Positions 14,098 to 63,066 of a stretch of 64,000 nt of DNA are shown here, piece by piece. The translations under genes were made by a program, and so were the position numbers. The first letter of the stretch is position 1. Each line of letters opens with the position of its first letter. The stretch is taken from positions 56,039,926 through 56,103,925 of the forward strand of contig CM049309.1 of NCBI GenBank assembly GCA_026874595.1. The letters run 5' to 3'. The notes under the pieces are model-generated. The model was not told the origin of the DNA and did no database searches. It saw nothing but the letters and a program-made list of their open reading frames with translations. The DNA is from Sipunculus nudus (lineage: Eukaryota > Annelida > Sipuncula > Golfingiida > Sipunculidae).

Positions 14098-14137
14098 GAA
14101 GGCGGAAGGAAGAGGATTGGGAGGGAGCGATGTTTGT

Positions 14138-15669: not shown

Positions 15670-16268
15670 ACGGCGGCGTGTCAGGGAGACGGTCGCGAGG
15701 GTGACGTAGACGCGTCACGGAAGGCACGAGAACCGGGGGGGGGACGGAAAATCGAACAGATCGAATTCCGCCCGCCCCAGGCGAGCGAAAACACTCCGAA
15801 TAACCGGGAGCGGAAGGAGCGGTGGGGAACACGCCCGGAAGATGGGATGCACGAACGGATGCCCGGAGATAAAGGCATAGATCGAACAAAAGGTAAGTCT
15901 CCTGCATGAGCGAGGGAGACCGGGTACCGCCCTGCTTGTTGATATAGGCCACCACCGTGGTATTGTCGGTCCGGATGAGAATGTGACGTCCGAACAAGCG
16001 GGGAGACCAGTGGGAGATCTAGCGACGGACAACACGCAGTTCGAGGATATTGATATGGAGCAGACGTTCCGACGGGGAGAGACGCATCGGTATAGATGGT
16101 GCAATCGACATCCCTGGAAAAAGGAACGCCGCGCAGGAGAAAGGAAAGGTCCAACCAGGGACGAAGGGACCGCCAGGTGTTCCGAAACGGGAGGACTGTA
16201 GGACGAACCGAGGTGAACCGGAGAAGGCCGTGACGGCGCAATATAGACTGAATCGGACGGAGGTACAG
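15670..16268 (-). pseudogene. DIRS RNase H region, multiple frameshifts
   Basis: Fragments in three frames line up as one RNase H: VPFSRDVDCTIYTDAS (frame of 16,241), SPSERLLHINILELRVVRR (frame of 16,342) and GRHILIRTDNTTVVAYINKQ (frame of 15,997). The shifts between fragments show that the domain has been disabled. Confidence 0.8.
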
Positions 16269-17357: not shown

Positions 17358-17579
17358 GAGAGGCCGAGCGGAGGCGGGCCTGACGATCAGAGCGTTCTAA
17401 GGCGCGGTCAAAGAGATGACGTAAGTGGCCGCCAAACAGCAGGGAACCGGTAAAAGGTTGACTATAAAGTTCGGTTAACTCCGCTTGAGTAAGCTCCGGC
17501 TTGAAGTGTTTCAACAACTGAAGGCAAGCCGTGCGGCGTAATAAGATGCAATTTTCCACCAGGCGCCAAACGACCTGAT

Positions 17580-19154: not shown

Positions 19155-19263
19155 GGGAAAATAAGAATAACTTACAATCAGTTGGCAAACTCAAAACGAC
19201 AAACCCAACAGTGGACGAATCTCGCAGCGCGGGATCAAACGTCCATCATGGCGTACGCCAGAA

Positions 19264-41200: not shown

Positions 41201-44200
41201 ATGGATAAAAACCATATGACACTGACGGCTGGGTTGCTGGGGTGGGGGAAGGGAGTGTGACCCTCCAGGATATTTTACCTGGACAACCATTGATAAAAGC
41301 CATATCTAAATTATAGGTAACATTACAAAACTTACTGATATTATATATTTAGATAACATTAAAATCAGTGTCAAAATTCTTAATTTAAGTGATGGATTTG
41401 ATAAACCAATCATACCATGGACAGCATCACTGATGACAAAAGCGATGATGTTAGAGATAACTCAATGATTTTTACATTTTAGTTCATATTATGTATTACC
41501 CATGATCCATATGAAGACCTGGTGTCTGAAATATGATGTTGTAATGTTGATAATTCAGAACAAAAGGAAGGGTGAGTCATGCAAAATATTTTTAAACTTA
41601 TTAACATAGGACTTCATGAGTCTGGATTACCAAATCACCTGTTTCACACAGAATCATCAGTGGATGGTTAGAGGATGGTAGGGGGAGAGGGTTGGGTATC
41701 AGGAGGTAAATGTTACCTGTGAGGGTTCCAAATCCTGTTCAAAGCAATGATGCACTTTATACACCCTGATATTGAGGAATGTACGTGACTATGTATGGGA
41801 ATTCTTCATCAACATATCATTTATTAACCACTTTTTTTAACCACCTGTTAATTTTTTATATCCCATGTTAATCTTTAATCACTGCGATGATTACATTTGC
41901 AATGAATCCTTGATTTCTTGTATCATCATGCTTTAGGTCACTGGATGAACAAATCAATATATCAATCAACCTTGAAAATAACAGGGTCATGCACAGTATA
42001 ACTGATCTCATGACCACCAAATGATACATAAAAATATAAGATAGAACATGGGCCTAGCTTGACTTTTTTTCTGGATATATTCCAAATTTCTCAGCTAACA
42101 TATTAACACTGTTACAAATTTGGCATTTTAAATAATTATAGTGTTTTTGGAATTAACTAGTTTTAAAAATGCAGCATGATTCTTATGATAAGATGCATGT
42201 TTAATAAAAGAGATGACTGGTAAGTAACTTACATCTACAAACACTGCATTGATGTAATTGTTGTGTTCCTCTACTGGGGTCATCAAAAATGCTCTTGCAC
42301 TGTTAGCTGTAATCAAATAATAATTGAATAATGAAATTTTATACTTTAGACTAGAATATGGGTAGTCTACAAGCGAATACGTGTATTCGTCAAAATCAGA
42401 GTGGAACGGGTGAAGTGAGGCATGGATTGAGTGGCAAGGGGAAATAGAGTGAGGTGTGTTGCATATTAGCATGGATGTCTGCAGCCTAAATGTGCATGTA
42501 GGTTGTGTCACCTACCACTATTCCAGAAAGTTGTCCAAGTTGTATATATATGCAAAATTTTAGGGAGAAAAGTCAAACCACTACAGAGATATGAGTGATT
42601 TTAGCCCATGGCAGACAAACAGACAGACGCTGTGCCAAAATGGTTGCAGGTTGCCCCTCCAATCTTGTGTATGATAAAGAGCTATGTGAGATCTTAATAC
42701 ACATGCAAAATTTTGGCCCAATCAGTCAAACGGTTCCCGAGATATGAGCTTTGATGTCTGCAGTGTAAACTAGAATGTAGGTGGCACCACCTGTCATAAA
42801 ATCAACAAAGCTGTCCAGGATGTATAAACCTGCAAAATTTTAAGCAGTTATGTCGAACCACTACAGAGATATGAGTGATTTTAGCCCATGGCAGACAAAC
42901 AGACAGACACTGTTCAAATATGGTTGCAGGGGGCCTCCCTTGTTTTGTGTATGATGAAGAGCTATGTGAGATCTATACACATGCAAACTTTTGGCCCAAT
43001 CGGTCAAACAGTTCCTGAGATATGAGCTTGGATGTCTGCAGCATTAACGTGAATGTAGGTGGCGCCACCTGTCATAAAATCAAGAAAGCTATCCAGGATA
43101 TATACACATGCCGAATTTCAGGTGAATCAGTCAAACCACTGCAGAGATATGAGTGATTTTAACCCAAGGCAGATGAACAGATGGACACTGTGCAAACATG
43201 GTTGCAGGTTGGGCCACCATATTTTGTGAATGTTATAAAGCTATCCAAGGGCTACATTTGTACACAATTTTTTTCCTGGTCGGTCAAATGGTTCCTGAGA
43301 TATGTGGGTTTATGTATGGAAACAGACGCACAAATGGATGCTGGGCAGAGAGGAAAAGTCAGAGGCCAAAGCCAATTGGTTAGGCACAAGTTCCCATGTG
43401 ACCTAGTAGTCTCAGAGGAGATCTCCGGAAATGAACGCAGCGGCAGCGGTGGCTGAACCCGGTCAAAAACATTGTATCCGCAAAACTTCGTTTTGGCGGA
43501 TACAATTCAACATTTTGATACTTATGTAGTGATAAATTGTCACAACAACATGGCAAGAGAAAAATATGATAAACATCATCCAGGATATCCATCTTAATTC
43601 TGATATGAATCTAAGTGTAAAATTTGACATAAATTACTTTTTAAGTACAGGAGGACTCAAATAATAAAATAATTATTTAACAAATTTTACATAACTTAAT
43701 TTTAAAATTAATGGAGTTTTGTTTTTCTTATTCAAAGCCTTTTTAAATTTGTTTATTGTATAAAATCTTGATTAGACCATACTTAAACATGTATATGTGA
43801 GTTTCCTCAGACATTTAAAACTATGCATATATAATATGTATCTGACTACATGTCATATACTTCATTAAGAAAAATTAATCTTTCCAATATAAAGGACACC
43901 TTACATCCTTATCAAAGAAGATAAAACAAAAAATTCTGATGTTAAAGATAAGGCAACACTTTGACATACGTGGTACAATAAACTTGTCTCTGTTTTTGTG
44001 CTTGTTGACTGGCAGCAATCCTTCACATTTTTCCTGTGCTGGTGGCACTCTCAGCTTAGCTAATCTCTACAAATAAAAAAAATCTAATTTTAAATCATGG
44101 TGCAAATCTGTCAATTCATTAAAAGTAACAAAAAATTTTTTGTACGGAACCAGATACTTTTCATCAAATTTTATTCTTTGTCATCCCTTTGAAGTCTTCA

Positions 44201-47200
44201 ATTTATTAACTCCTGTAACCTTCTGTAATTTTATTAGGACAACAAATGTTTGTTTATTGTTGTTTAAATCATGAGTGAGGGCTCCCCTGAACAGTTGTCT
44301 CCGCTCCATAACACTTTAGCGCCTATGTTACATAATCACTTGCAGGTCTCTGAAGTTTCCACTCACGTCAAGTCAGTTGGTATTTTGCATGTGCCTGGTG
44401 CAGAACTCACAAATCTTGCTTAAGTTTATTATCATTTCTTATGATGGGTTAATTCATGGGTAATAAAAACCAGGGTATCTCCAAGCTTGAGTTCTGTCAT
44501 TTATGTATTTAAATTTCTCCACAATCCCCATCCAGACATTACAAGATGTCAAAAATTAACAATTTACTAGTGGATATTCTCTACACAACAGCTTCAAGAG
44601 GCAATGCATCCACAAGGTCTGTGGAGCATACAACCACCTGGAAATTATTGCCAGGATTTCCTGGTCAAGCTTTCATGTGTTATGTCATTCTACAGCATCA
44701 ACAGGTTCACCTGGCCAGTTGCTGAACACATACTGCCCATAATGAATGATCCAGGCCCTATCCAAGGACAATGGAATTGCTGTCTGTAACAATGGTTTAT
44801 ATAATCCTTTGAATTAAAAATATATTATGGTGATCCAGATTTCTAAATAAAATTGATGGACATTTCTTTAGGTGTTACACTTACCCTACATAATATTTCA
44901 TTAATAACCATTAATAACATTTAGCATGAAGTTGCTTATAGTCACACCATCCAACAAACCAATTAACAAAAGGTAAAACATAATAACTTCCTGGCTGAGG
45001 TAAACACATGAATTTAAATGAGCTAATATCAATTTAGGGTGACCAGTCTGCCAATGTTGTATTAGATCACCTATTAATCAGCATTATGGGTTGTCAATCA
45101 GCACTGTGGTATCAATAATCTGGGGGTTTCTGTCATACATACCTCAAACTCCTCCTGCAGCTCATATTTTCCAGTTTCCGGGTTGACTTTGAGCCGAGCA
45201 TTGAACTGCTCCCTGAACAAGGGGGTGGGTATGGGAGTGTCCTTGGAGTACAACTGTTCAATCAGAGCATCGTGTAGGAACACATACTGCTCCTGAAAAT
45301 GGAATTTTTTTAAGTCAGCCCAGTGTTCAAAGAGAGATTTTCTTATGTGGATATAGTTCCTGAGATGTGTCCAAATAATTCTATTGAGATTTTATCATGA
45401 CTGCTGAGAGAATAAGGCTAATTTGCAGAAATATTTTGTAACTGAGGATGCCAGATATAGAAAGAATTTGTTGTGTTGAAGTTGAAAAGACTAACATAAA
45501 AGCTAACAAGAGAAAAGTTGATCTGTTGAACAGTTCTAGTATTTCCCCCGCCTTTTGTTGGGATACCTCAAAAAAAATTGTGAATAAATGCCGTAGTATG
45601 TAATTTCAGATGGGTCAATGTCACCCAGCAAGATTATCTCTGTGACCATGAAACCTGCATCAAGATCAACCATGTGTGAACTGGACCTAGCCCTAAATAA
45701 GGGCCCTAGCCCTAAAAATCATGCTGCAAGTTTGGTGACTGTACCACAAATTCATTAAGAGTTATTGCATTAATATCATTTTTAGCATTATCGCTGCTGT
45801 GACCTTGAAAAAATATGGCAAGGTCATCCATGTTGTGTCTTGACCTAGCCATCGATAAGGTGCATCAATATGCTGCAAGCTTGATGACTGTACCTTAAAT
45901 TCTTTTTTAGTTATTGCATTGACATCATTTTAGCATTATCACCCCTGTGACCTTGAAAAATGCCTCAAAGTCATCCATGTTCAAATTGACCTAGCCCTTG
46001 ATAAGTGCATCAATGCTTCAATTATGGTGACTGTACCTCAAATTCTTTTTGAGTAAATCGTTTACAAAGAGACAGAGAGACAGATAGATGGAAAGACAGA
46101 CAGATGCTCACAATTTCCGTGTCCCCCACTGACAGCACCTTCAGCCATGGCAGGGTACAAAAAGATCTGATGCTGGACACAAGTGGATTTCCTTTGTAAT
46201 CATAAACCTTAGATTTTACAAGAAATCAGAGCTGATGATTTCAGCAAAAGTGTATTCTTTAATTTGAGCTAGTTTTCAGGAAGCAAGATTTCTATAATAC
46301 ATACACACGCACATTTTACTTGAGTCTGGACCATCATCATTGCACAGATCGACACACACATTACCTGATTCTGGACCATCATCATCAAACAGACACACAC
46401 ATTATACCTGAATCTGGACCATCATCATTACACAAACACACACATTACCTGAGTCTTGAACATCATCATCATCACACACATTACCTGAGTCTTATACATC
46501 GTCATTATATAGGCACACACACATTACCTGAGTCTTGAACATCATTATTATATAGGCACACATACATTACCTGAGTCTGGACCATCATCATTACACAGAC
46601 ACACACATTACCTGAGTCTTGAACATCATCATCATCACACACATTACCCGAGTCTTGAACATCATCATCATCACACACATTACCTGAGTCTTGAACATCA
46701 TCACATACACACACACATATTACCTGAGTCCTGAACATCATCATTACATAGGCACACATACATTACCTGAGTCTTGAACATCATCATCATCACACACATT
46801 ACCTGAGTCTTGAACATCATCATTATATAGGCACACACACATTACCTGAGTCTTGAACATCATCATTATATAGGCACACATACATTACCTGAGTCTGGAC
46901 CATCATCATTACACAGACACACACATAACCTGAGTCTTGAACATCATCATCATCACACACATTACCCGAGTCTTGAACATCATCATCATCACACACATTA
47001 CCTGAGTCTTGAACATCATCACATACACACACACACATTACCTGAGTCCTGAACATCATCATTACATAGGCACACATACATTACCTGAGTCTGGACCATC
47101 ATCATTACACAGACACACATTACCTGAGTCTTGAACATCATCATCACATACACATTACCTGAGTCTTGAACATCATCACATACACACACCCACATTACCT

Positions 47201-50200
47201 GAGTCCTGAACATCATCATTATATAGGCACACACACATTACCTGAGTCTGGACCATCATCATCCTCTGCTCTCTCAGCTGCAGTACCAGAGAAAAGATGT
47301 CTATTTCATCCTGGTCCTTCACCTGCTCCAACAATATGTCCAGGGCAATATACGTGCCCGTCCTGCCCACTCCAGCACTGAAAACACAAGATTAGTTTCA
47401 ATCAATACAATATAGTTACTTATTATTAGTAGCAGTATTTAATGTTAATCATTACCATTCAATTTTGTCCTAGGTAATCTTTCAGATGTTTGTGCAGTAT
47501 ATAAACTTGTTTTGTAATTGTGCATTCATTTAGCAACCTCTTCAATACAGTGCTGATTATTTCATATTTATTGCAAAAATAAGGGAAAAGTTGATCTGTG
47601 GAACAGATCTAGTGTGTCCCTGCCTGTAGTGGAAACGGCTGGAAAAATTGTTAATATCACCAACCATGATAACCTCTGTGACCTTGAAATCTGCATCAAG
47701 GTCATCCATACTAGACCTTGACCTAGCTCTTAATGAGGCACATCAAGACTGCAAGTTTGACGACTGTGCCTCAAATTCATGTTGAGTTATTGCGTAAAAT
47801 TCATTTCAGCATTATTGCCTCTGTGACCTTGAAAAATGTGTCAAGGTCATCCATATTCGAACTTAACCTAGCCATTCCTAGGGATTATCAATGCTGCAAG
47901 ACATGCCTCCAATTTTTTTTCAATTGTTGCATTAACATCATTTTAGCATTATCGCCACAGTGACCTTGAAAAATGTGTCAAGGTCGTCAATAGTTAAACT
48001 TGAGCTAGCACTTCATTAGGTGCATCATTGCTTCAAGTAAGGTGATTGTGCCTCTAATTCTTTTTGAGTTTTTTGGTTAAGATATTTTAGCATCATCCCT
48101 GCTGTGACCTTGAAAAATGCATCAAGTTCATCCATGTTGGAACTTGACCTAGCCCTTGGTCAATGTTGCAAGTTTGGTGACTTTACCTAAAATGCCTTCA
48201 AGTTATTGCGTTAAAATATCTTTAATGGATGGATGGACAGAAATATGGACAGACATCATTTCTTAATTTGTCCCCAACTGATGGCGCCTGTTCATAGTTC
48301 CCAACAGCGCCCTAGGCAACGGCGGTGGACAAAAATACCACACTATAGCAAATGTGTTAACCTCAAGGAAACTTCAGTGATTACTGTCCCTGTTTTACAC
48401 TGAGATAGTTTTCTATTGGTGTTTCATGCAACAAATTCATCCTCATTGACAATTCACTAGTAACAGGTAGATGTTTGGTTTGTGTTTTTGTTAGACAGAC
48501 ATCACACACCTGCAGTGAACAACCAGTGGGCCAGTGCCCTTCTCATCATAGCTGTGCACTCTGCTCCTGAAGTTAAGGAGAGCTGCTGCTTGTCTAGGGA
48601 TGCCCTTGTCAGGCCAGGAAGTGAAGTGAAGCTGCCAGATCTTCCTGGTCTCCTCCTGCACCTAGAGAAGGTTATAATAATGGCTCTAAATATAATTATA
48701 ATGGTTCATAATGATTTCTAAAGAAGATCTTTATTATTGTCCATAATGCTTACCAAGGCTAGAGAAGATCATATTAATTGCAAATAATGCTCACCTTTCC
48801 AAGATTATTATAATGGTTCATAATGCTCACCTCTATATGACCCCCCTCTTACAAGTCAACTTTTCTTCTCAGTTATCACTGATATTCATGGCGAATATCT
48901 AAAGTTTTTTAACACACAGATCACAAATGTATGCATGCCATTTCTAAGGGACTGAATGGCCAGGTTTTTCTTCCAGCTTAAGGAAAGATAATTTACAAAA
49001 CTGGTCAAATTTGTCTTTTTCCAAAGATAAAATTTAGATCTGTCATTCCCGTTAAATAAAGCACAGAAGCTGCATAAAAGAGTAGGTGGGGCCATTAATC
49101 AAGTGTATCTGGATTTTAACGGCAATCACACAGGAATCCTTACCTTGGTTGTGACATTGAGTATGTGGATGACAGTGTTTTCTGCCAGGCCAAGCACCTC
49201 ATCCAAAGCCACCTCCACATCACATACTGACCAGCCACACAGGAATCCTTACCTTGGTTGTGACATTGAGTATGTGGATGACAGTGTTTTCTGCCAGGCC
49301 AAGCACCTCATCCAAAGCCACCTCCACATCACATACTGACCAGCCACACAGGAATCCTTACCTTGGTTGTGACATTGAGTATGTGGATGACAGTGTTTTC
49401 TGCCAGGCCAAGCACCTCATCCAAAGCCACCTCCACATCACATACTGACCAGCCACACAGGATTCCTTACATTGTGTGTGAAACTGAGTGTGTGGATGAC
49501 AGTGTTTTCTGCCAGGCCAAGCACCTCATCCAAAGTCACCTCCACATCGCATACTGACCAACCACAGGAATCCTTACATTGTGTGTGAAACTGAGTGTGT
49601 GGAAGACAGTATTTTCTGCCAGGCCAAGCACCTCATCCAAAGTCACCTCCACATCACATACTGACCAACCACAGGAATCCTTACATTGTGTGTGAAACTG
49701 AGTGTGGGGATGACAGTGTTTTCTGCCAGGCCAAGCACCTCATCCAAAGTCACCTCCACATCGCATACTGACCAACCACAGGAATCCTTACATTGTGTGT
49801 GAAACTGAGTGTGTGGATGACAGTGTTTTCTGCCAGGCCAAGCACCTCATCCAAAGTCACCTCCACATCACATACTGACCAACCACAGGAATCCTTACAT
49901 TGTGTGTGAAACTGAGTGTGTGGATGACAGTGTTTTCTGCCAGGCCAAGCACCTCATCCAAAGTCACCTCCACATCGCATACTGACCAACCACAGGAATC
50001 CTTACATTGTGTGTGAAACTGAGTGTGTGGATGACAGTGTTTTCTGCCAGGCCAAGCACCTCATCCAAAGCCACCTCCACATCACATACTGACCAGCCAC
50101 ACAGGAATCCTTACCTTGGTTGTGACATTGAGTACGTGGATGACAGTGTTTTCTGCCAGGCCAAGCACCTCATCCAAAGCCACCTCCACATCACATACTG

Positions 50201-53200
50201 ACCAGCCACACAGGATTCCTTACATTGTGTGTGAAACTGAGTGTGTGGATGACAGTGTTTTCTGCCAGGCCAAGCACCTCATCCAAAGTCACCTCCACAT
50301 CGCATACTGACCAACCACAGGAATCCTTACATTGTGTGTGAAACTGAGTGTGTGGAAGACAGTATTTTCTGCCAGGCCAAGCACCTCATCCAAAGTCACC
50401 TCCACATCACATACTGACCAACCACAGGAATCCTTACATTGTGTGTGAAACTGAGTGTGTGGATGACAGTGTTTTCTGCCAGGCCAAGCACCTCATCCAA
50501 AGTCACCTCCACATCGCATACTGACCAACCACAGGAATCCTTACATTGTGTGTGAAACTGAGTGTGTGGATGACAGTGTTTTCTGCCAGGCCAAGCACCT
50601 CATCCAAAGTCACCTCCACATCGCATACTGACCAACCACAGGAATCCTTACATTGTGTGTGAAACTGAGTGTGTGGATGACAGTGTTTTCTGCCAGGCCA
50701 AGCACCTCATCCAAAGCCACCTCCACATCACATACTGACCAGCCACACAGGAATCCTTACCTTGGTTGTGACATTGAGTATGTGGATGACAGTGTTTTCT
50801 GCCAGGCCAAGCACCTCATCCAAAGCCACCTCCACATCACATACTGACCAGCCACACAGGATTCCTTACATTGTGTTTGACACTGAGGATGTGGGTGACA
50901 GTGTTTTCTGCCAGGCCAAGCACCTCATCCAAAGTCACCTCCACATCATATACTGACCAACCACAGGAATCCTTACATTGTGTGTGAAACTGAGTGTGTG
51001 GATGACAGTGTTTTCTGCCAGGCCAAGCACCTCATCCAAAGTCACCTCCACATCACATACTGACCAGCCACACAGGATTCCTTACATTGTGTTTGACACT
51101 GAGGATGTGGGTGACAGTGTTTTCTGCCAGGCCAAGCACCTCATCCAAAGTCACCTCCACATCATATACTGACCAACCACAGGAATCCTTACATTGCGTG
51201 TGAAACTGAGTGTGTGGATGACAGTGTTTTCTGCCAGGCCAAGCACTCATCCAAAGCAACCTCCACATCACATACTGACCAGCCACACAGGAATCCTTAC
51301 ATTGTGTGTGAAACTGAGTGTGTGGATGACAGTGTTTTCTGCCAGGCCAAGCACCTCATCCAAAGCCACCTCCACATCACATACTGACCAGCCACACAGG
51401 AATCCTTACCTTGGTTGTGACATTGAGTATGTGGATGACAGTGTTTTCTGCCAGGCCAAGCACCTCATCCAAAGCCACCTCCACATCACATACTGACCAG
51501 CCACACAGGATTCCTTACATTGTGTTTGACACTGAGGATGTGGGTGACAGTGTTTTCTGCCAGGCCAAGCACCTCATCCAAAGTCACCTCCACATCATAT
51601 ACTGACCAACCACAGGAATCCTTACATTGCGTGTGAAACTGAGTGTGTGGATGACAGTGTTTTCTGCCAGGCCAAGCACTCATCCAAAGCAACCTCCACA
51701 TCACATACTGACCAGCCACACAGGAATCCTTACATTGTGTGTGAAACTGAGTGTGTGGATGACAGTGTTTTCTGCCAGGCCAAGCACCTCATCCAAAGCC
51801 AACTCAACATCACATACTGACCAGCCACACAGGAATCCTTACATTGTGTGTGAAACTGAGTGTGTGGATGACAGTGTTTTCTGCCAGGCCCAGCACCTCA
51901 TCCAAAGTCACCTCCACATCACATACTGACCAACCACAGGAATCCTTACATTGTGTGTGAAACTGAGTGTGTGGATGACAGTGTTTTCTGCCAGGCCAAG
52001 CACCTCATCCAAAGTCACCTCCACATCACATACTGACCAGCCACACAGGAAACCTTACATTGTGTGTGAAACTGAGTATGTGGGTGACAGTGTTTTCTGC
52101 CAGGCCAAGCACCTCATCCAAAGTCACCTCCACATCACATACTGACCAGCCACACAGGAATCCTTACATTGTGTGTGAAACTGAGTGTGTGGATGACAGT
52201 GTTTTCTGCCAGGCCAAGCACCTCATCCAAAGCCACCTCCACATCACATACTGACCAGCCACACAGGAATCCTTACATTGTGTGTGAAACTGAGTGTGTG
52301 GATGACAGTGTTTTCTGCCAGGCCAAGCACCTCATCCAAAGTCACCTCCACATCACATACTGACCAACCACAGGAATCCTTACATTGTGTGTGAAACTGA
52401 GTGTGTGGATGACAGTGTTTTTCTGCCAGGCCAAGCACCTCATCCAAAGTCACCTCCACATCACATACTGACCAGCCGCACAGGAATCCTTACATTGTGT
52501 GTGAAACTGAGTGTGTGGATGACAGTGTTTTCTGCCAGGCCAAGCACCTCGTCCAAAGCCACCTCCACATCACATACTTACCAGCCACACAGGATTCCTT
52601 ACATTGTGTTTGACACTGAGTTTTCTGCCAGGCCAAGCACCTCATCCAAAGCCACCTCCACATCACATATTGACCAGCAACACAGGATTCCTTACATTGT
52701 ATTTGACACTGAGTATGTGGGTGACAATGTTTTCTGCCAGGCCAAGCACCTCATCCAAAGTCACCTCCACATCATATACTGACCAACCACAGGAATCCTT
52801 ACATTGTGTGTGAAACTGAGTGTGTGGATGACAGTGTTTTCTGCCAGGCCAAGCACCTCATCCAAAGCCACCTCCACATCACATACTGACCAGCCACACA
52901 GGATTCCTTACATTGTGTTTGACACTGAGTATGTGGGTGACAGTGTTTTCTGCCAGGCCAAGCACCTCATCCAAAGTCACCTCCACATCATATACTGACC
53001 AACCACAGGAATCCTTACATTGTGTGTGAAACTGAGTGTGTGGATGACAGTGTTTTCTGCCAGGCCAAGCACCTCATCCAAAGTCACCTCCACATCACAT
53101 ACTGACCAACCACAGGAATCCTTACATTGTGTGTGAAACTGAGTGTGTGGATGACAGTGTTTTCTGCCAGGCCAAGCACCTCATCCAAAGTCACCTCCAC

Positions 53201-56200
53201 ATCACATACTGACCAACCACAGGAATCCTTACATTGTGTGTGAAACTGAGTGTGTGGATGACAGTGTTTTCTGCCAGGCCAAGCACCTCATCCAAAGTCA
53301 CCTCCACATCACATAATGACCAGCCACACAGGAATCCTTACATTGTGTGTGAAACTGAGTGTGTGGATGACAGTGTTTTCTGCCAGGCCAAGCACCTCAT
53401 CCAAAGTCACCTCCACATCACATACTGACCAACCACAGGAATCCTTACATTGTGTGTGAAACTGAGTGTGTGGATGACAGTGTTTTCTGCCAGGCCAAGC
53501 ACCTCATCCAAAGTCACCTCCACATCACATACTGACCAGCCACACAGGAATCCTTACATTGTGTGTGAAACTGAGTATGTGGGTGACAGTGTTTTCTGCC
53601 AGGCCAAGCACCTCATCCAAAGTCACCTCCACATCACATACTGACCAGCCACACAGGAATCCTTACATTGTGTGTGAAACTGAGTGTGTGGATGACAGTG
53701 TTTTCTGCCAGGCCAAGCACCTCATCCAAAGCCACCTCCACATCACATACTGACCAGCCACACAGGAATCCTTACATTGTGTGTGAAACTGAGTGTGTGG
53801 ATGACAGTGTTTTCTGCCAGGCCAAGCACCTCATCCAAAGTCACCTCCACATCACATACTGACCAACCACAGGAATCCTTACATTGTGTGTGAAACTGAG
53901 TGTGTGGATGACAGTATTTTCTGCCAGGCCAAGCACCTCATCCAAAGTCTCCTCCACATCACATACTGACCAACCCTAGGAATCCTTACATTGTGTGTGA
54001 AACTGAGTGTGTGGATGACAGTGTTTTCTGCCAGGCCAAGCACCTCATCCAAAGTCACCTCCACATCACATACTGACCAGCCACACAGGAATCCTTACAT
54101 TGTGTGTAAAACTGAGTGTGTGGATGACAGTGTTTTCTGCCAGGCCAAGCACCTCATCCAAAGCCACCTCCACATCACATACTGACCAACCACAGGAATC
54201 CTTACATTGTGTGTGAAACTGAGTGTGTGGATGACAGTGTTTTCTGCCAGGCCAAGCACCTCATCCAAAGTCACCTCCACATCACATACTGACCAACCAC
54301 AGGAATCCTTACTTTGAGTGTGAAACTGAGTGTGTGGATGACAGTGTTTTCTGCCAGGCCAAGCACCTCATCCAAAGTCACCTCCACATCACATACTGAC
54401 CAACCACAGGAATCCTTACATTGTGTGTGAAACTGAGTGTGTGGATGACAGTGTTTTCTGCCAGGCCAAGCACCTCATCCAAAGCCACCTCCACATCACA
54501 TACTGACCAGCCACACAGATTCCTTACATTGTGTGTGAAACTGAGTGTGTGGATGACAGTGTTTTCTGCCAGGCCAAGCATCTCATCCAAAGTCACCTCC
54601 ACATCACATACTGACCAACCACAGGAATCCTTACATTGTGTGTGAAACTGAGTGTGTGGATGACAGTATTTTCTGCCAGGCCAAGCACCTCATCCAAAGT
54701 CACCTCCACATCACATACTGACCAACCACAGGAATCCTTACATTGTGTGTGAAACTGAGTGTGTGGATGACAGTGTTTTCTGCCAGGCCAAGCACCTCAT
54801 CCAAAGTCACCTCCACATCACATACTGACCAACCACAGGAATCCTTACTTTGAGTGTGAAACTGAGTGTGTGGATGACAGTGTTTTCTGCCAGGCCAAGC
54901 ACCTCATCCAAAGTCACCTCCACATCACATACTGACCAACCACAGGAATCCTTACATTGTGTGTGAAACTGAGTGTGTGGATGACAGTGTTTTCTGCCAG
55001 GCCAAGCACCTCATCCAAAGTCACCTCCACATCGCATACTGACCAACCACAGGAATCCTTACATTGTGTGTGAAACTGAGTGTGTGGATGACAGTATTTT
55101 CTGCCAGGCCAAGCACCTCATCCAAAGTCACCTCCACATCACATACTGACCAGCCACACAGGAATCCTTACATTGTGTGTGAAACTGAGTGTGTGGATGA
55201 CAGTGTTTTCTGCCAGGCCAAGCACCTCATCCAAAGTCACCTCCACATCGCATACTGACCAACCACAGGAATCCTTACATTGTGTGTGAAACTGAGTGTG
55301 TGGATGACAGTGTTTTCTGCCAGGCCAAGCACCTCATCCAAAGTCACCTCCACATCACATACTGACCAACCACAGGAATCCTTACATTGTGTGTGAAACT
55401 GAGTGTGTGGATGACAGTGTTTTCTGCCAGGCCAAGCACCTCATCCAAAGTCACCTCCACATCGCATACTGACCAACCACAGGAATCCTTACATTGTGTG
55501 TGAAACTGAGTGTGTGGATGACAGTGTTTTCTGCCAGGCCAAGCACCTCATCCAAAGTCACCTCCACATCGCATACTGACCAACCACAGGAATCCTTACA
55601 TTGTGTGTGAAACTGAGTGTGTGGATGACAGTGTTTTCTGCCAGGCCAAGCACCTCATCCAAAGTCACCTCCACATCGCATACTGACCAACCACAGGAAT
55701 CCTTACATTGTGTGTGAAACTGAGTGTGTGGATGACAGTGTTTTCTGCCAGGCCAAGCACCTCATCCAAAGTCACCTCCACATCACATACTGACCAACCA
55801 CAGGAATCCTTACATTGTGTGTGAAACTGAGTGTGTGGATGACAGTGTTTTCTGCCAGGCCAAGCACCTCATCCAAAGCCACCTCCACATCACATACTGA
55901 CCAAACACACAGGAATCCTTGCATTGTGTGTGAAACTGAGTGTGTGGATGACAGTGTTTTCTGCCAGGCCAAGCACCTCATCCAAAGTCACCTCCACATC
56001 ACATACTGACCAGCCACACAGGAATCCTTACATTGTGTGTGAAACTGAGTGTGTGGATGACAGTGTTTTCTGCCAGGCCAAGCACCTCATCCAAAGCCAC
56101 CTCCACATCACATACTGACCAGCCACACAGGAATCCTTACATTGTGTGTGAAACTGAGTGTGTGGATGACAGTGTTTTCTGCCAGGCCAAGCACCTCATC

Positions 56201-59200
56201 CAAAGTCACCTCCACATCGCATACTGACCAACCACAGGAATCCTTACATTGTGTGTGAAACTGAGTGTGTGGAAGACAGTATTTTCTGCCAGGCCAAGCA
56301 CCTTATCCAAAGTCACCTCCACATCACATACTGACCAACCACAGGAATCCTTACATTGTGTGTGAAACTGAGTGTGTGGATGACAGTGTTTTCTGCCAGG
56401 CCAAGCACCTCATCCAAAGTCACCTCCACATCGCATACTGACCAACCACAGGAATCCTTACATTGTGTGTGAAACTGAGTGTGTGGATGACAGTGTTTTC
56501 TGCCAGGCCAAGCACCTCATCCAAAGTCACCTCCACATCGCATACTGACCAACCACAGGAATCCTTACATTGTGTGTGAAACTGAGTGTGTGGATGACAG
56601 TGTTTTCTGCCAGGCCAAGCACCTCATCCAAAGTCACCTCCACATCGCATACTGACCAACCACAGGAATCCTTACATTGTGTGTGAAACTGAGTGTGTGG
56701 ATGACAGTGTTTTCTGCCAGGCCAAGCACCTCATCCAAAGTCACCTCCACATCACATACTGACCAACCACAGGAATCCTTACATTGTGTGTGAAACTGAG
56801 TGTGTGGATGACAGTGTTTTCTGCCAGGCCAAGCACCTCATCCAAAGCCACCTCCACATCACATACTGACCAAACACACAGGAATCCTTGCATTGTGTGT
56901 GAAACTGAGTGTGTGGATGACAGTGTTTTCTGCCAGGCCAAGCACCTCATCCAAAGTCACCTCCACATCACATACTGACCAGCCACACAGGAATCCTTAC
57001 ATTGTGTGTGAAACTGAGTGTGTGGATGACAGTGTTTTCTGCCAGGCCAAGCACCTCATCCAAAGCCACCTCCACATCACATACTGACCAGCCACACAGG
57101 AATCCTTACATTGTGTGTGAAACTGAGTGTGTGGATGACAGTGTTTTCTGCCAGGCCAAGCACCTCATCCAAAGCCACCTCCACATCACATACTGACCAA
57201 CCACAGGAATCCTTACATTGTGTGTGAAACTGAGTGTGTGGATGACAGTGTTTTCTGCCAGGCCAAGCACCTCATCCAAAGTCACCTCCACATCGCATAC
57301 TGACCAACCACAGGAATCCTTACATTGTGTGTGAAACTGAGTGTGTGGATGACAGTGTTTTCTGCCAGGCCAAGCACCTCATCCAAAGTCACCTCCACAT
57401 CGCATACTGACCAACCACAGGAATCCTTACATTGTGTGTGAAACTGAGTGTGTGGATGACAGTGTTTTCTGCCAGGCCAAGCACCTCATCCAAAGTCACC
57501 TCCACATCACATACTGACCAACCACAGGAATCCTTACATTGTGTGTGAAACTGAGTGTGTGGATGACAGTGTTTTCTGCCAGGCCAAGCACCTCATCCAA
57601 AGTCACCTCCACATCGCATACTGACCAACCACAGGAATCCTTACATTGTGTGTGAAACTGAGTGTGTGGATGACAGTGTTTTCTGCCAGGCCAAGCACCT
57701 CATCCAAAGTCACCTCCACATCACATACAGACCAGCCACACAGGAATCCTTACATTGTGTGTGAAACTGAGTGTGTGGATGACAGTGTTTTCTGCCAGGC
57801 CAAGCACCTCATCCAAAGCCACCTCCACATCACATACTGACCAGCCACACAGGAATCCTTACATTGTGTGTGAAACTGAGTTTGTGGATGACAGTGTTTT
57901 CTGCCAGGCCAAGCACCTCATCCAAAGTCACCTCCACATCACATACTGACCAACCACAGGAATCCTTACATTGTGTGTGAAACTGAGTGTGTAGATGACA
58001 GTGTTTTCTTCCAGGCCAAGCACCTCATCCAAAGCCACCTCCACATCACATACTGACCAGCCACACAGGAGTCCTTACATTGTGTGTGAAACTGAGTGTG
58101 TGGATGACAGTGTTTTCTGCCAGGCCAAGCATCTCATCCAAAGTCACCTCCACATCACATACTGACCAGCCACACAGGAATCCTTACATTGTGTGAAACT
58201 GAGTGTGTGGATGACAGTGTTTTCTGCCAGGCCAAGCACCTCATCCAAAGTCACCTCCACATCGCATACTGACCAACCACAGGAATCCTTACATTGTGTG
58301 TGAAACTGAGTGTGTGGATGACAGTATTTTCTGCCAGGCCAAGCACCTCATCCAAAGTCACCTCCACATCACATACTGACCAGCCACACAGGAATCCTTA
58401 CATTGTGTGTGAAACTGAGTGTGTGGATGACAGTGTTTTCTGCCAGGCCAAGCACCTCATCCAAAGTCACCTCCACATCACATACTGACCAACCACAGGA
58501 ATCCTTACATTGTGTGTGAAACTGAGTATGTGAATGACAGTGCGGTCTGCCAGGCCCAGCAACTCATCCAGACTCACCTCTGTACCACATACTGACCAGC
58601 CACACAGGAATCCTTACCTTATGCCTGACACTGAGTGTGTGGATGGTGTAGTCTGCCAGGCCAAGTACCTCATTCAAAGTCACCTCTATGTCTCCATATG
58701 TTTTAGAAGTCCCCTTCTTGCTGGGCCAGTATTGCTCCACTTTACTCTGAAAGACACAAAAATTGTAATACATGGTACATCAATTATTGCAAATATTTTT
58801 TTTACTTGCAGTGCAAATAATTTTTAGCTCTTATTTTTTATGCCACTTCTGGCATCATCAGTACCTGGTATGTGTCACAGATGTATGATATTAATCATTA
58901 AAGAAGGCCTACAGGCCTAATGTGAACCTGTGCATTGAGAAATACACCAGGTTTAATGCTTCAATGCTTGACCATTACTTTTCATGTATATGAACAATGC
59001 AAGTACTAAGCATTTTGAATAAGAAACAATTACACAAACATCACTGCTGAATTTCTGGCATGGGTGCACACAACACAAAAATGATTGGTGCTGGCAACAC
59101 CAGTCTTGTATACAACAAAGCTATCAGAGATATATACATATGCTAAATTTCAGACTGATATATCAAACCCCTCCTGAGAAATACACAGTGACACACACTG

Positions 59201-62200
59201 TGCAAAATTATTGTAGGTGGCACCACCAGTCTTGTATACGACAAAGCTATTTGATATGTATAAATATGCCTAATTTCAGGCTGATATAACAAATTCCTCT
59301 GTAGAAAAAAAGCAGGCACATACACTGTGCAAAAGTCATTGTTGGTGGTGACACCTATCTTGTGAGTGAGAAAGCCATGCATCAAAGACACATAGACAGG
59401 TCAAAATATCAAGCCAATACATCAAACTTACCTGGAGTCTGATCCATGGGGCTGACCAGGCTTAGGTGACATAGGCAGTTGCCCCGAGTGGACTATGACA
59501 AATGCTGGCTCAGGCTACTGTACTGAGTGAACTCATGACCTGCACCTGGCTAGACTGAGTGAACTTTTGACCTGTACCTGGCTGCACAGAGTGAACTCTT
59601 GACCTGTTGCATAATCTGACACAGTTGGCAGTCTGCCAAAGCTATAAATAGATGCAGGCTGCACTTTAGTGCCAAATCCGATGCAGTGGGCATTCTGCCA
59701 ACCCTATAAATAGAATGCAGCTACTGTACTGAGAGAACTCCTGACCTTTACCTGGCTGCACTGAGTGAAATCTTGACCTGTTGCCTAATCTGATACAGTT
59801 GGCAGTCTGCCAAAGCTATAAATAGATCAAGACTGACCTTTGGCCTGTTGCCAAATCTGAAATAGTAGCCACACCATTGCATAAGCTCACAGATTGGCTC
59901 CACATGCAGCCCGAGGGGCATGGCACACATGAGGTGATCACATGATACTCTGAGGTGATCACATGCTACCTATGAGGTGACCACATGTCACCCATGAGGT
60001 GATCACATACTTTGTGCTTGGCAGCACTGATTGAACTCTTGACTTATATCTGGCTGCACTGAATGAACTCTTGATCTGTTGCCATATCTGAAACAGTTTG
60101 CAGTTTCCCAACCTATTTAAAGATACAGATTCAATCTTGGCCTGTTGGTTTTCTGTTGACACATACTGAAAGACTTTGGCATAATGCTTTTTTTTCAAGC
60201 TGACATATTCATAAACTTTTTATCAAAATATCTAGAATAATAAAAGATGCAGTCCTTTCATTGTTGAAGGTCCAATAATTCTGCCAAAGAACATTCAAGT
60301 AAACTTGAACAAAGGCTACCTAAGAATAATTTTGGTGCAATGTTACAGAAGTTATAATTGAAACAATAATTTTGTAGATGAACACTATTGCAGTACTCAG
60401 TTTGAAATAGACATAATAATGGCCATAAGACCAACTTAAGCTTTTCACAACTCAACCAAAAATCAACAAACTCATTCTATTCTGATATGATTGAAAAAAC
60501 CATGTCCTAGGATAATTCAATTTGAAAAATTGAATGATTTAACTTGACAGTTTCATCATAAACATTTTAAGCTGAAAGAGGCTAAAATTATGAGGTTTAT
60601 GCCCATAAAAAACAGGTAAATGTAGGTGGCACCACGAAATCTGCAACTTCAAATATGAGTCATGTGACTAACATTTGCACAATACTTGGTATTGTCATTT
60701 TTGAGATTACTATGTCAGTATGCTTACTTGGCCAAATGACTAAGTTCAAATTCGTTTAACTCATAAAAAATTCATCCAATGCAAACCATTTGATCTGACT
60801 TGAGAGGGCTTGCCAACTGGGATCATTTCTGTAAAATATTGAACAATTTGGCTGGACCATTTACAAGAAGAATACTTTTAAAGGTTTTTCAGCTTTTTCC
60901 ATATAAAATATAAGTAAATGCTGATAGCAAAAAAATAAGCTGAATCCCACAACATTTGATATGTGACAGATTATTGCATCTGGGGATGGTAGCTCCTTTT
61001 ATTCCTAAGAAATCATGGGTTAATGTACAGATGACCAATGACCCCCATACAAAAAAAGATCAATGCAGGTGGCACCGATACCTGAATTTCATATATGACT
61101 CATGTGACCAACACTGGCATAAAATTTGGTGATGATAGCCGTTTCTGAGACTGTCATTTAAGAACGCTTTTTTGGACAGATGACTAAGTTCAACTTCCTG
61201 TAACTCGGCCAAAAATACATGGAAATTAAACCATTCGAACAAACTTGAGAGAGATGATATGAAAGATTATTTATTGGAAATATTGAACAATTTGGCTAGA
61301 CTGTTTTGGCGGAGAAGATTTTAAAATGTTTTTTAGCTTTTCCTCTATAAAATCTAAAAAAATGCATTTTTTTTCAGATGGCTAATTTTTTGCATTAAAT
61401 TTCATGATGCTAGCTCCAGTTGTTTTCGAGATAGTATGGGTAAACCATAGATAACATGAAATCTTAATGTCTAGAGGCATGATGTAATGGATGCTGATAA
61501 ACTGGTGCCAGGCTAGATGAATCTGCTTTACACAGCTAACATATATGGTAAATGACTCAATTCAATCTTTAAAATTCAGCCAAAATTGGTTCTTTGGAAC
61601 CATAAAAGACAATAATTATAAGAAATATTCAGGGGATTATTCTTGTAAAATATTAAACAAATTGGCCTCAGTGGCTTCAGTCAAAAAACGTTTTGCAGGT
61701 ATTTAACTAATTTGGGAAAATACAGCGAAATGTCTAAGTTCAGCTTCCCAAAACTCAGCCAAAAATCACTCAACCAAAACCATTTGAACAAACTTGAATT
61801 ATCGACATCTAAGGATAATCAATAGGCATTCAATTATTTTTTCATTCTGAGTTACAAGCATGCAGACATTCCTTTATTCCAAGTGACAGGCCTTTAGACA
61901 TTTTCTCTTTCTGAGTTACAGGCATGTTGACATTTTCACTTTTTAGGTTACCGGCATGTTGACATTTTCTTCTTCAGAGTTACAAGGATTTAGAATTTGT
62001 TTTCCTCCTGAGTTACAAGCATGTAGACATTTTTTTCCTCCTGAGTTACAGGCATGTTGACATTTTCACTTTTTAGGTTACCGGCATGTTGACATTTTCT
62101 TCTTCAGAGTTACAAGGATTTAGAATTTGTTTTCCTCCTGATTTACAAGCATGTACACATTTTCTCCTCCTGAGTTACAAGCATGTGGACATTTTCCCTT

Positions 62201-63066
62201 TCTGAGATATAATCATGTAGACATTTTCTCTTTCTGAGTTACAAGCATGTAGCAATTTTCTCTTCCTGAGTTACAAGCATGTAGACATTTTCTCTTTCTG
62301 AGTAACAAGCATGTATACATTTTCTCTTTCTGAGTTACAAGCATGTTTACATTTTCTCTTTCTCAATTACATTCATGTAGCCATTTTTTCTTCATCAGTT
62401 ACAAGCATGTACACATTTTATCTTCCTGAGTTACAAGCATGTGGACATTTTCTCTTATTGAGTCAAAGCATGTAGACATTTTTTTCTTTCTGAGTTACAA
62501 TCATGAAGACATTTTTTTCTTTCTGAGTTACAATCATGAAGACATTTTCTCTTTCTGAGTTACAAGCACGTAGACATTTTCTCTTTCTGGGGTTACATGC
62601 ATGTAGATATTTTCTCTTTCTGAGTTCTAAGCATGTAGACATTTACTCTTTCCAAGTGACAAGCTTTTAGACATTTACTCTTCTTGACTTACAATCATGT
62701 AGACATTTTCCCTTCCTGAGTTACAATCATGTAGTCATTTTCCCTTTCTAAGTTACAATTATGTAGACATTTTCTCTTTCTGAGTTACAAGTGTGTAGAC
62801 ATATTTTCTTCCTGAGTTACAAGCATGTAGACATTTTCTCTCCTGAGTTACATGCATTTTGAAATTTTCTCTTTTTGAGTTACAAGCATGTAGAGTTGTG
62901 GACATTTCATCTTTCTGAGTTAAATGTATTTAGACATCTTCAAGTGTATGATTATTCATGCCACTCACCTTTCCCATTTCAAACAGATTGGTCACCATGA
63001 CAATCCGGTTAGCATTTATTTCCCAAATCATCCTCCAGAAGTCTACCATGGTATCATTATTGGGAC
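35160..63066 (-). CDS. Receptor-type protein tyrosine phosphatase, 3' twelve exons (partial, 5' end outside window)
   Basis: Twelve exons join in phase to encode the last 492 residues of a tandem-domain receptor PTP. D1 retains DFWRMIW, the WPD loop in [11 protein letters not shown] and the signature [16 protein letters not shown], with nucleophile Cys and binding Arg present, so it should be catalytically competent towards phosphotyrosine. D2 follows, with [22 protein letters not shown] and the loop HCLDGNSKSG. The domain order and the D2 HCL-x-G signature resemble the R2B (kappa/mu/T-like) group, which is expanded in molluscs; the exact subtype is uncertain because the ectodomain and membrane span lie off the right edge. 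Introns are full of tandem arrays, several derived from this gene's own splice junctions (see findings). Confidence 0.92.
35317..35652 (-). mobile_element. tRNA-derived SINE
   Basis: The minus strand has an A-box-like TGGCATAATTGTAAGG (35,638-35,623) and a B box GGTTCAAATCTCG (35,601-35,589), then a body with CCCAGGAGTGAATGGGTAC and an A-rich tail near 35,320. The 96-codon ORF across it is incidental. It sits about 80 bp beyond the 5' edge of RPTP exon L, within an intron. Confidence 0.75.
36240..37000. repeat. Diverged repeats in the RPTP K-L intron
   Basis: Roughly 120-bp units with TGATTTGACATTGAA/TGATTTGACTTAAAA and GGTCAAGGTCACC/GGTCAAGGTTACC at about 36,640-36,960. They are similar in style to the TGACCTTGA family. 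Confidence 0.45.
37684..37819 (-). CDS. RPTP exon K (D2: C-terminal half of pseudo-active site)
   Basis: Acceptor TTTACAG, donor GTGAGT. Completes [20 protein letters not shown] and ends YQFITSV. Lys replaces the signature Arg of C-x5-R. Confidence 0.93.
38370..38539 (-). CDS. RPTP exon J (D2: degenerate WPD and Cys loop)
   Basis: Acceptor TTATTCAG, donor GTAAGT. Encodes [20 protein letters not shown] and, at its end, GRKQMVVHC. The WPD aspartate position reads WSN, so the general acid is missing. Confidence 0.93.
38690..39520 (-). repeat. Degenerate 19-24-bp minisatellite ending at the RPTP exon I donor
   Basis: The repeats read CTGTCTGTGAGTGTAACACT on the plus strand and run up to exon I. 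Several units contain TAACACTTACC, i.e. GGTAAGTGTTA on the minus strand, identical to the true exon I donor. The last coding bases of exon I (plus strand CCTGTATGTGTAAGC) also look like a unit. Confidence 0.75.
39521..39652 (-). CDS. RPTP exon I (D2: PYWP segment)
   Basis: Acceptor CATGCAG, donor GTAAGT; 44 codons. Encodes [20 protein letters not shown] and ends TMELTHTGR. It is the D2 counterpart of exon B. Confidence 0.92.
39695..39760 (+). mobile_element. Fragment of the AAGAGACCC repeat family
   Basis: ACAAGAGACCCATGGGTCAT resembles the opening of the element at 513. Only the terminal part is recognisable. Confidence 0.4.
40435..40563 (-). CDS. RPTP exon H (D2: VTQHPL / LWRMIYDY)
   Basis: Acceptor GTCACAG, donor GTAGGA; 43 codons. 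Encodes [35 protein letters not shown] and MLNQTDEK. The 5' end appears to have seeded the adjacent 41-kb array. Confidence 0.93.
40564..41225 (-). repeat. Tandem array beside the RPTP exon H acceptor; about 82-bp units in its distal part
   Basis: From 40,795 to 41,220 the unit is about 82 bp, with GGATGGATAAAAACC and CCATATGACACTGTATGAG as landmarks. Nearer exon H (40,590-40,790) the units are shorter and diverged, and contain GGTTAACCAGGAAAAAGTGA and AAAGCCATATGG. These resemble the exon start and acceptor on the plus strand (GGTAACCAGGAATGAGT, GCCATATGACCCTGTGACAC). Derivation from the boundary is likely but the similarity is imperfect. Confidence 0.75.
42233..42306 (-). CDS. RPTP exon G (D2: NYINAVFVD)
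   Basis: Acceptor TTACAG, donor GTAAGT. Encodes [20 protein letters not shown] and VFVD. The block NNYINA is conserved in PTP domains. The 5' neighbouring intron carries a Helentron-like copy. Confidence 0.88.
42349..43508 (+). mobile_element. Helentron/pearl-like non-autonomous element, copy 4 (RPTP intron F-G)
   Basis: Starts ACTAGAATATGGGTAGTC and ends with the hairpin GTATCCGC-AAAAC-TTC-GTTTTG-GCGGATAC. The core comprises tandem modules of about 280 bp with GAGATATGAGTGATTTTA and GTAGGTGGCGCCACC (one perfect palindrome at about 43,058). This copy is more diverged than copy 3. Confidence 0.75.
43970..44066 (-). CDS. RPTP exon F (start of D2)
   Basis: Acceptor TTTGTAG, donor GTATGT. Encodes [20 protein letters not shown] and [12 protein letters not shown], the entry to D2, where NK-x-KNR is the usual motif. 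Confidence 0.88.
45143..45292 (-). CDS. RPTP exon E (D1 end and inter-domain linker)
   Basis: Acceptor TTTTCAG, donor GTATGT; 50 codons, phase 0. Begins [20 protein letters not shown], the usual last helix of D1, and runs into the linker ending ELQEEFE. Confidence 0.93.
45505..46155. mobile_element. Dispersed repeat with TGACCTTGA/TCAAGGTCA units, copy 1
   Basis: Starts AAAAGTTGATCTGTTGAAC and ends near GCCATGGCAGGGTAC. Internal units of about 145 bp contain GTGACCTTGAAAAA followed by AAGGTCATCCAT. A second copy (47,575-48,337) has the same start and internal structure, so this is a family and not intron sequence specific to the gene. No coding capacity was seen. Confidence 0.65.
46317..47241 (-). 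repeat. Minisatellite derived from the RPTP exon D 3' end and donor (about 23 units)
   Basis: On the minus strand the units read GATGATGTTCAAGACTCAG followed by GTAATGTGTGTG, matching the last bases of exon D (ATGGTCCAGACTCAG) and its donor GTAATGTGTG. The units are 35-43 bp with variable CA/GAT tracts. The array ends directly at the true donor. A larger block repeats at an offset of about 318 bp. Confidence 0.9.
47242..47377 (-). CDS. RPTP exon D (D1: AGVGRTG loop)
   Basis: Acceptor TTTTCAG, donor GTAATG. With the two bases of exon C it completes [16 protein letters not shown], then [20 protein letters not shown] and ends [11 protein letters not shown]. The C-terminal MMVQTQ coding bases plus donor seed the array at 46,317-47,241. 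Confidence 0.95.
47575..48337. mobile_element. Dispersed repeat with TGACCTTGA/TCAAGGTCA units, copy 2
   Basis: Begins AAAAGTTGATCTGTGGAAC. Four internal units near 47,680, 47,823, 47,958 and 48,103 carry TGACCTTGA followed by an inverted TCAAGGTCA or a variant of it. The end is GC-rich, with GGCGCCTG and AACGGCGGTGGAC. Confidence 0.65.
48510..48661 (-). CDS. RPTP exon C (D1: WPD loop and catalytic cysteine)
   Basis: Acceptor TCTCTAG, donor GTGTGT. Encodes [20 protein letters not shown], then [15 protein letters not shown] and ends GPLVVHC plus two bases. It holds the general-acid Asp of the WPD loop and the nucleophilic Cys. The intron separating it from exon B is 9.96 kb, nearly all satellite. 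Confidence 0.95.
49128..58611 (-). repeat. Exon-derived satellite: about 87 tandem units of 107/109 bp in the RPTP intron
   Basis: The intron between exons B and C is a nearly uninterrupted head-to-tail array. Read on the minus strand, each unit contains about 84 bases homologous to the 3' part of exon B ([20 protein letters not shown] compared with [19 protein letters not shown]), then GTAAGGATTCC and about 15 more intron-like bases. The two lengths reflect CCAGCCACACAGG versus CCAACCACAGG at the unit junction. The unit next to exon B (58,502-58,590) is the most diverged; central units are nearly identical. Long blocks recur at offsets of 433, 969 and 1,499 bp, indicating higher-order duplication. 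It is not CRISPR: there are no unique spacers. Confidence 0.95.
58618..58746 (-). CDS. RPTP exon B (D1: QYWP segment; parent of the satellite)
   Basis: Acceptor TTTCAG, donor GTAAGG; 43 codons in phase 0. Encodes [16 protein letters not shown] followed by [20 protein letters not shown] and TLSVRHK. The last 84 bases and the donor are the template of the array beginning just downstream. The exon is intact and in frame with exons A and C, so it is the functional copy. Confidence 0.93.
59060..59400. repeat. Degenerate repeat of about 115-bp units
   Basis: Three units with ACCAGTCTTGTATAC, AAAGCTAT and AATTTCAG(A/G)CTGATAT, related to the core of the Helentron-like family. Confidence 0.55.
59430..60180. 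repeat. Diverged tandem repeats in the RPTP A-B intron
   Basis: Several copies of CTGAGTGAACTCTTGACCTG and of CAGTCTGCCAAAGCTATAAA at roughly 170-bp spacing. Between 59,931 and 60,006 there are four close copies of GAGGTGATCACATG-like sequence. Confidence 0.6.
60600..61440. repeat. Two diverged copies of an approximately 440-bp repeat
   Basis: Starting near 60,620 and 61,060, the two copies share GTAGGTGGCACC/GCAGGTGGCACC, TATGAGTCATGTGAC/TATGACTCATGTGAC and GACTAAGTTCAA in the same order. They are distant relatives of the GGTGGCGCC-bearing repeats elsewhere in the window. Confidence 0.55.
61846..62945. repeat. 31-33-bp minisatellite in the RPTP intron between exons A and B
   Basis: About 33 imperfect copies of a unit containing GAGTTACAAGCATGTAGACA followed by TTTTCTCTTTCT. 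It stops about 24 bp from the exon A donor but shows no convincing similarity to that exon. Confidence 0.85.
62969..63066 (-). CDS. RPTP exon A (D1: DFWRMIW segment)
   Basis: Acceptor CCCTAG, donor GTGAGT. After two bases of a split codon it reads [20 protein letters not shown], then [12 protein letters not shown], phase 0 at its end. This is the conserved PTP core segment before the YWP block. The rest of D1 is further right, outside the window. Confidence 0.93.

Follow-up and report, generated by a model that had tools for sequence, protein, structure and literature searches.

Introduction

Mirages at the amphioxus Adh3 gene are said to have been described by Canestro et al. in Nucleic Acids Research (NAR) in 2002. 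The term denotes minisatellites that lie across exon-intron boundaries, and in the parts of two papers drawn on here it is applied to the amphioxus Adh3 and globin genes and, in the second of them, to TnC and PGBD5 (PMC3087553, PMC3902484). According to these parts, the repeat units measure 10-72 bp in Adh3 (PMC3087553) and 60 and 108 bp in PGBD5 (PMC3902484), the BflGb6 units, 6 and 3 in number and 150-160 bp long, lie at the acceptor, and in BflGb9 the 3′ boundary of exon 2 is duplicated over 157 bp (PMC3087553). The same parts report that mirage units carry AG/GT splice signals in many, but not all, cases, that the Adh3 data together with reverse transcription-PCR (RT-PCR) of the globins suggested regular splicing (PMC3087553), and that new introns were suggested to arise by way of mirages. 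Here we describe an array of this type in a window of 64,000 nucleotides (assembly GCA_026874595.1, contig CM049309.1, positions 56,039,926 to 56,103,925 of the forward strand; positions below are those of the window unless a contig is named). In a receptor-type tyrosine phosphatase gene on the minus strand of this window, the 3′ part of one exon (exon B), together with its 5′ splice site (donor) and the first bases of the intron, recurs as 88 tandem units (array B) within the intron that follows.

Like the amphioxus mirages, array B is a tandem duplication across an exon-intron boundary, has splice signals in its units and lies inside an intron. It also resembles the BflGb6 mirage, for which concerted evolution and an escape of the cluster edges from homogenisation are described in the part cited (PMC3087553). 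It differs from the mirages described there, which have few copies, in that 88 units extend over 9.5 kb, in that two clear arrays and a weak one occur in a single gene and others in several further genes, and in that the host is probably not amphioxus. The initial annotation of this locus, a reading of the sequence made before any search, knew of no described case of an exon/donor junction that had become a satellite of this size; as far as the type of array is concerned, the amphioxus mirages are such a case. Thus the type is already known, and what is new is the size of the array, its recurrence in one gene and across genes, and the host. In the portions of the literature covered, no boundary-spanning array of this size was found, and none in molluscs, which does not prove that none exists.

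Zhuo (2007) and Gao and Lynch (2009), as cited in PMC3087553, reportedly deal with the origin of introns from tandem arrays or from duplications of AG|GT, and Turri et al. (1995) are said to have reported a human IFI6/6-16 minisatellite that supplies several splice donors. Array B shares with the former process a tandem duplication across splice signals, but instead of making new introns it has enlarged an existing one, whose position is shared with paralogues. With human IFI6 (6-16) it shares a tandem repeat that provides donor sites where an exon ends; two downstream repeat units of the IFI6 minisatellite are used as donors and give rise to further mRNAs (PMC4526556), whereas the use of array B donors would bring in a stop. 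Tandem exon duplication likewise leaves exon-derived copies in the adjoining intron, but in array B the copies are confined to the 3′ portion of the exon plus the donor, and no intact extra exon was seen in it. Arrays of this type would provide a simple route for intron growth without protein change, allow their birth, their growth and what they cost in splicing to be counted, and offer a natural experiment on how the spliceosome picks one donor among dozens of near-copies.

Array B is built from exon-donor-intron units beside an intact exon B

Array B occupies 49128-58617 on the minus strand (9.49 kb), as determined by Tandem Repeats Finder (TRF), donor counts and unit alignment. TRF reported a single array at 49127-58686 with a period of either 107 bp (88.8 copies) or 214 bp (44.4 copies), the 214-bp period obtaining the higher score. 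On the gene strand, exact GTAAGG occurs at 87 sites between 49143 and 58617, exon B's own included, and two further sites read GCAAGG; the 89 donor sites therefore comprise the one of exon B and 88 in the array, 86 of them GTAAGG and 2 GCAAGG. The array of about 87 copies that the initial annotation had placed beside exon B is thus real. Each unit consists of the last ~84 bases of exon B, the donor and ~23 intron bases, so that it joins exon, boundary and intron sequence as mirage units do (the same applies to array D, described below), and an AG (GGTCAG|TATG) is present in the units in addition to the donor. This composition agrees with the unit first proposed, the exon 3′ end plus donor plus intron start, except that the same GTAAGG had been assigned to every unit and two have GCAAGG. 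It also bears out that this is no simple exon duplication, for which a whole exon with both splice sites would be expected in each copy. At position -1, the 89 donor sites have T in 80 cases, G in 7 (one of them exon B's own) and A in 2.

For comparison among units, 88 of the 89 donor sites passed the filters and delimited 87 units, one of which was double-length (218 bp). Most units were 107 bp (48 of 87) or 109 bp (32 of 87) long. Their mean pairwise identity was 93.4%, with 39 distinct sequences among the 87, and identity was nearly constant along the array (0.933-0.941 for lags of 1-12 units). With a mean identity of 84%, the unit adjacent to the exon ranked below all others except the 218-bp unit and one of 93 bp, a usual edge effect of array homogenisation.

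Exon B itself (58618-58746, minus strand, 129 bp, SKVEQYWP...SVRHK) is flanked by the acceptor tttcag|AGTAAAG and the donor AAG|GTAAGG; it is the functional exon and the source of the array unit. Joined with exon A2 (62969-63066, ending in ...FEMGK), exon C (48510-48661, preceded by ctctag and ending in ...VVHC), exon D (47242-47377, SAGVGRTG...MMMVQTQ, donor CAG|GTAATG) and exon E (45143-45292, ending in ...EEFE), all on the minus strand, it gives one open frame (63066-62969, 58746-58618, 48661-48510, 47377-47242, 45292-45143), which confirmed that exon B is intact beside the array. The joined product matched Pfam Y_phosphatase at 5.3e-64 and contains the HCxxGxGRxG signature of tyrosine phosphatases, and its best PDB chains were PTPRS and LAR; judged from these phosphatase-domain exons, the host gene is assigned as a LAR/PTPRS-like receptor phosphatase. 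The intron after exon B measures 9956 bases (58617 down to 48662), 9490 of which (95%) belong to array B. The growth of this intron to 10 kb had been stated correctly; the exon beyond it, which had been called the catalytic-cysteine exon, holds only the HC of the catalytic signature, the remainder being in exon D.

The units reflect an older form of exon B and matched only this locus in two genome searches

When exon B was aligned with the units, the match covered its last ~84 bases, ran through the donor and continued into the same intron bases. The unit consensus was 78% identical to its own exon B junction over 104 positions, versus 57-59% for the exons of four paralogues on contig C6. It carries one additional codon (GTC) that is missing from both exon B and the paralogues, and it shares with the C6 paralogues an ACACAC near the exon end and an Asn codon, whereas the present exon B encodes other residues there. 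These paralogue-like features, since changed in exon B, indicate that the unit came from an older form of the exon. Of 25 comparable codons, 11 differ between unit and exon B (7 non-synonymous and 4 silent); the array copies have probably drifted as non-coding DNA.

Whether the unit occurs only at this locus, a question raised with the initial annotation, was addressed by searching the whole genome (1.43 Gb, 153 contigs) with exon B plus its flank and with a 154-base unit consensus. Each search returned 88 matches, all within the locus; this locus specificity is strong but not absolute, as the DNA search passes over very common words and some stretches of the sequence read N.

Donor-spanning arrays in other introns of the same gene

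Beyond what the initial annotation covered, we found a second array in this gene, a degenerate array in a further intron, and arrays in other genes. In the junction test, the 700 bases that follow each donor were scored for copies spanning it, 200 dinucleotide shuffles served as the reference, and the score limit was 14. Array D (46351-47263 by TRF, minus strand) spans the donor of exon D and overlaps the last 22 bases of that exon, whose end reads ...GTCCAGACTCAG|GTAATGTGTGTG. This junction is present 22 times, exon D's own included, as CAG|GTAATG in 18 cases, CGG|GTAATG in 2, and CAG|GTTATG and CAG|GTAATA in 1 each, spaced 35-43 bp apart except for a single interval of 84.

Exon F (39521-39652, minus strand), which belongs to the second phosphatase domain, has the donor AGG|GTAAGTGTTA, its 5′ end having been judged by eye. 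Its intron (intron F, 38540-39520, minus strand) contains degenerate repeats of 20-23 bp with four sites resembling the donor junction (38995, 38972, 38948 and 38924), the best of which scored 17 and exceeded 200 of 200 shuffles. The intron F repeats are possibly a third donor-spanning array, albeit a weak one.

No donor-spanning copies were found by the junction test in the 700 bases after exon E. The intron of exon A2 holds an array with a 32-bp period (61836-62894), which starts 74 bp past the donor without spanning it; this array, having no junction copy, was rejected as a donor-seeded one. Another array, of 81/159 bp (40788-41224), lies a few hundred bases upstream of a second-domain exon match, and its units contain the acceptor-like TTCTCATACAG; this array was not accepted as one that includes an acceptor.

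Donor-spanning arrays in other genes

The survey of further donors started from phosphatase exons found with PF00102, for which 150 of 496 candidates were scored and 153 matches were obtained. These matches constitute a large family expansion, with exon clusters at C2:51.5-52.3 Mb, C13:29.9-32.3 Mb, C15:58.4-59.4 Mb and C6:22.4-23.2 Mb. Among the matches listed, 103 exon hits were available and 101 were taken on; removal of 7 that lacked a credible donor and manual addition of 4 exons from the window gave 98, of which 96 had enough intron (8 in the window and 88 outside). Donors were picked by a simple consensus score and by position within the family, and that of the window hit at contig position 56080282 is doubtful. 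Large copies in a single frame (L001-L008, L010) are not part of the sample, nor are many of the hits listed, so that the percentages describe the sample and not the genome.

As a result, 12 of the 96 phosphatase donors were positive in the junction test, 3 of 8 in the window and 9 of 88 outside. The latter were L009, L044, L066 and six related genes on contig C15 (L038-L043), which share one array and which we counted as one event. TRF gave copy numbers of 3.9, 3.9, 6.7, 7.7 and 7.7 for a 35-bp unit in five of the C15 paralogues and 2.0 copies of a 105-bp period in the sixth, indicating that copy number turns over. The four C6 paralogue exons corresponding to exon B had no donor copies in the 700 bases tested. 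Kinase and kinesin sets of 40 regions each, 38 in each with a confident donor, were examined in the same way: one of the 38 kinase donors was positive (L075, 65-bp unit, 12.8 copies), and none of the 38 kinesin donors was. Outside the window, junction-spanning copies were therefore detected at 10 of 164 donors from all families, corresponding to about five independent events. The introns of two kinase genes, L078 and L090, contain tandem arrays with a 180-bp unit at a similar distance past the donor.

On the acceptor side, 86 sites were credible enough to be examined and 3 were positive, all of them in C6 paralogues; the acceptor of L054 scored 12, which beats the shuffles but is below the limit. 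In the C6 paralogues L031, L033 and L034, copies span the acceptor of exon C, as a mirror of the donor arrays.

Probable growth of the array and predicted splicing of exon B

Very probably, array B is a mirage-type satellite that began as a silent tandem duplication across the donor and grew by repeat turnover while the exon-proximal donor went on splicing. A short tandem duplication would once have covered the 3′ end of exon B, the donor and the first intron bases; it would have been silent because everything downstream leaves as intron, and the protein would stay the same provided that splicing keeps to the exon-proximal donor. Slippage or unequal exchange would then have enlarged the array to about 88 homogenised units, thereby expanding the intron to 10 kb, and the same process would have operated at exon D and in several other genes. 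The homogenised units, the diverged edge unit and the differing copy numbers of the C15 genes argue for growth of this type.

The sequence also suggests how exon B could be spliced correctly beside 88 further donors. When exon B is read on into array B, a stop is reached inside the first unit, so that the use of any array B donor would yield a receptor cut before the catalytic cysteine. With G at -1, the true exon B donor (AAG|GTAAGG) has a better predicted complementarity to U1 than most copies, which read AAT|GTAAGG. Array B donors are most likely inert, because most of them lack G at -1, and all lie beyond the exon-proximal donor and would bring in an in-frame stop if used; the single open frame of exons A2 to E is compatible with regular splicing. 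Neither the conservation rank of the donor hexamer (21 of 102 hexamers in the unit) nor the codon changes (7 of 11 non-synonymous) gave a clear sign of selection on the array B copies, which is consistent with the array being neutral.

Several points weigh against this explanation. In array D, 18 of 22 junctions are identical to the exon's own CAG|GTAATG, so that weaker copies provide no general reason for correct splicing, and at exon D it would have to be position, not strength, that decides; the first extra donor of array D would add 43 bases, which contain no stop of their own but shift the frame. Furthermore, the donor hexamer of array B is slightly better kept than the exon-like columns (0.992 versus 0.974), and the 0 of 38 kinesin donors mean that either the rate differs between families or the sample is uneven. 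Finally, we infer both the use of the first donor and the seeding event, the latter not being itself visible in the sequence.

Alternative explanations

A different account, which is possible though we consider it clearly less likely than not to be right, is that tandem arrays in this genome arise preferentially at donor junctions instead of striking them like any other intron position, owing to a mutational or repair bias or to positive selection for extra donors. Among the TRF arrays with scores of at least 100 outside the window, 10 rows (5 groups once paralogues were merged) span a donor, versus 16 rows (13 groups) that start at +0 to +640; for 166 donors, 1.42 groups would be expected per 70-bp zone, and the 5 donor-spanning ones give a Poisson P=0.015. 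Two of the 13 downstream groups (L071 at +8 and L116 at +6) begin right behind the donor, without exon sequence, and acceptors pass the limit of the junction test in just the 3 of 86 cases given above. This enrichment is tempered by the fact that the array groups were set after the rows had been seen, with one kinase repeat family counted twice among the 13. Moreover, a control with pseudo-junctions inside introns was positive in 36 of 287 cases, the same rate as the 12 of 96 donors; 17 of the 287 pseudo-junctions sit in donor-spanning arrays, 15 of them positive by our reading, and 21 of 270 are positive without them. The asymmetry between donors and acceptors could also arise, without any birth bias, from selection against acceptor-side duplications. 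A birth bias at donors is thus no more than suggested by these data.

A combined form of this idea, in which donor junctions are recurrent minisatellite birthplaces in this genome, at about 1 in 10 of the sampled phosphatase donors, with one array enlarged to the size of a satellite, and the arrays are perhaps kept as U1-dense shields against polyadenylation, appears doubtful. If true, arrays would be born not at random but in a process coupled to splicing or transcription at the donor. Still less probable is that array B is functional as a set of U1-binding sites, its ~88 donors recruiting U1 snRNP and preventing premature polyadenylation in a long intron, or else adjusting how exon B is spliced. 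GTAAG has a density of 9.27/kb in array B versus 0.64/kb elsewhere on the same strand, and AATAAA/ATTAAA is absent from the 9490 bp of array B versus 89 occurrences in the 54510 bp elsewhere; both figures are consequences of the 88-fold copying of one unit rather than independent observations. The modest rank of the donor hexamer and the four closest C6 paralogues, which do without such copies at exon B, also speak against such a function.

It is very unlikely that array B is an assembly artefact with an inflated copy number or a misassembly: no N occurs in 49001-58800, 39 of the 87 units differ in sequence, the flanks are normal exons, and the same pattern was found at other loci. The units might further be regarded as a store of alternative exons of the cassette or mutually exclusive kind, in that each has an AG and a donor and could in principle be an exon; this highly improbable reading was rejected on unit structure and frame, as the units lack the 5′ part of exon B and their lengths, mostly 107 or 109 bp, change the frame, quite apart from the non-synonymous codon changes. 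A dispersed satellite or transposon-borne repeat resembling exon B by chance, for which the window offers a parallel in other tandem families that look dispersed (units of 278-280 bp in four places) and nothing for the unit itself, is extremely unlikely and was rejected, within the limits of the search, on the two genome searches, whose copies lie in this locus rather than at many unrelated ones, and by the sequence, direction and donor that the unit shares with exon B.

Other features of the window and the assembly

The tandem family with units of 278-280 bp forms short arrays at 5964-6713, 8621-9426, 30912-32018 and 42463-43208; their consensus sequences are similar, and they probably represent one dispersed family. 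At 14000-19200 the minus strand has long open frames that presumably belong to a DIRS-type retroelement. PF00005 (ABC_tran) was tried as a further comparison family and set aside: its 19 scored matches, from 819 candidates, were all on bacterial-looking small contigs (C61-C138, e.g. C89:3004226 and C66:1268466), and several of them were nearly equal in score and length, so that the assembly may contain sequences from bacterial associates or contaminants. The phosphagen kinase of this genome reads CPSNLGTTCRASVHIKIP, which we take to be of the arginine-kinase type; this speaks against amphioxus and makes a protostome probable, and the size of the phosphatase family together with the chromosome number perhaps points to a mollusc. 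Phosphagen kinase genes form a tandem cluster at C16:44157300-44529650, consisting of two blocks with a spacing of about 6.35 kb and nearly equal scores.

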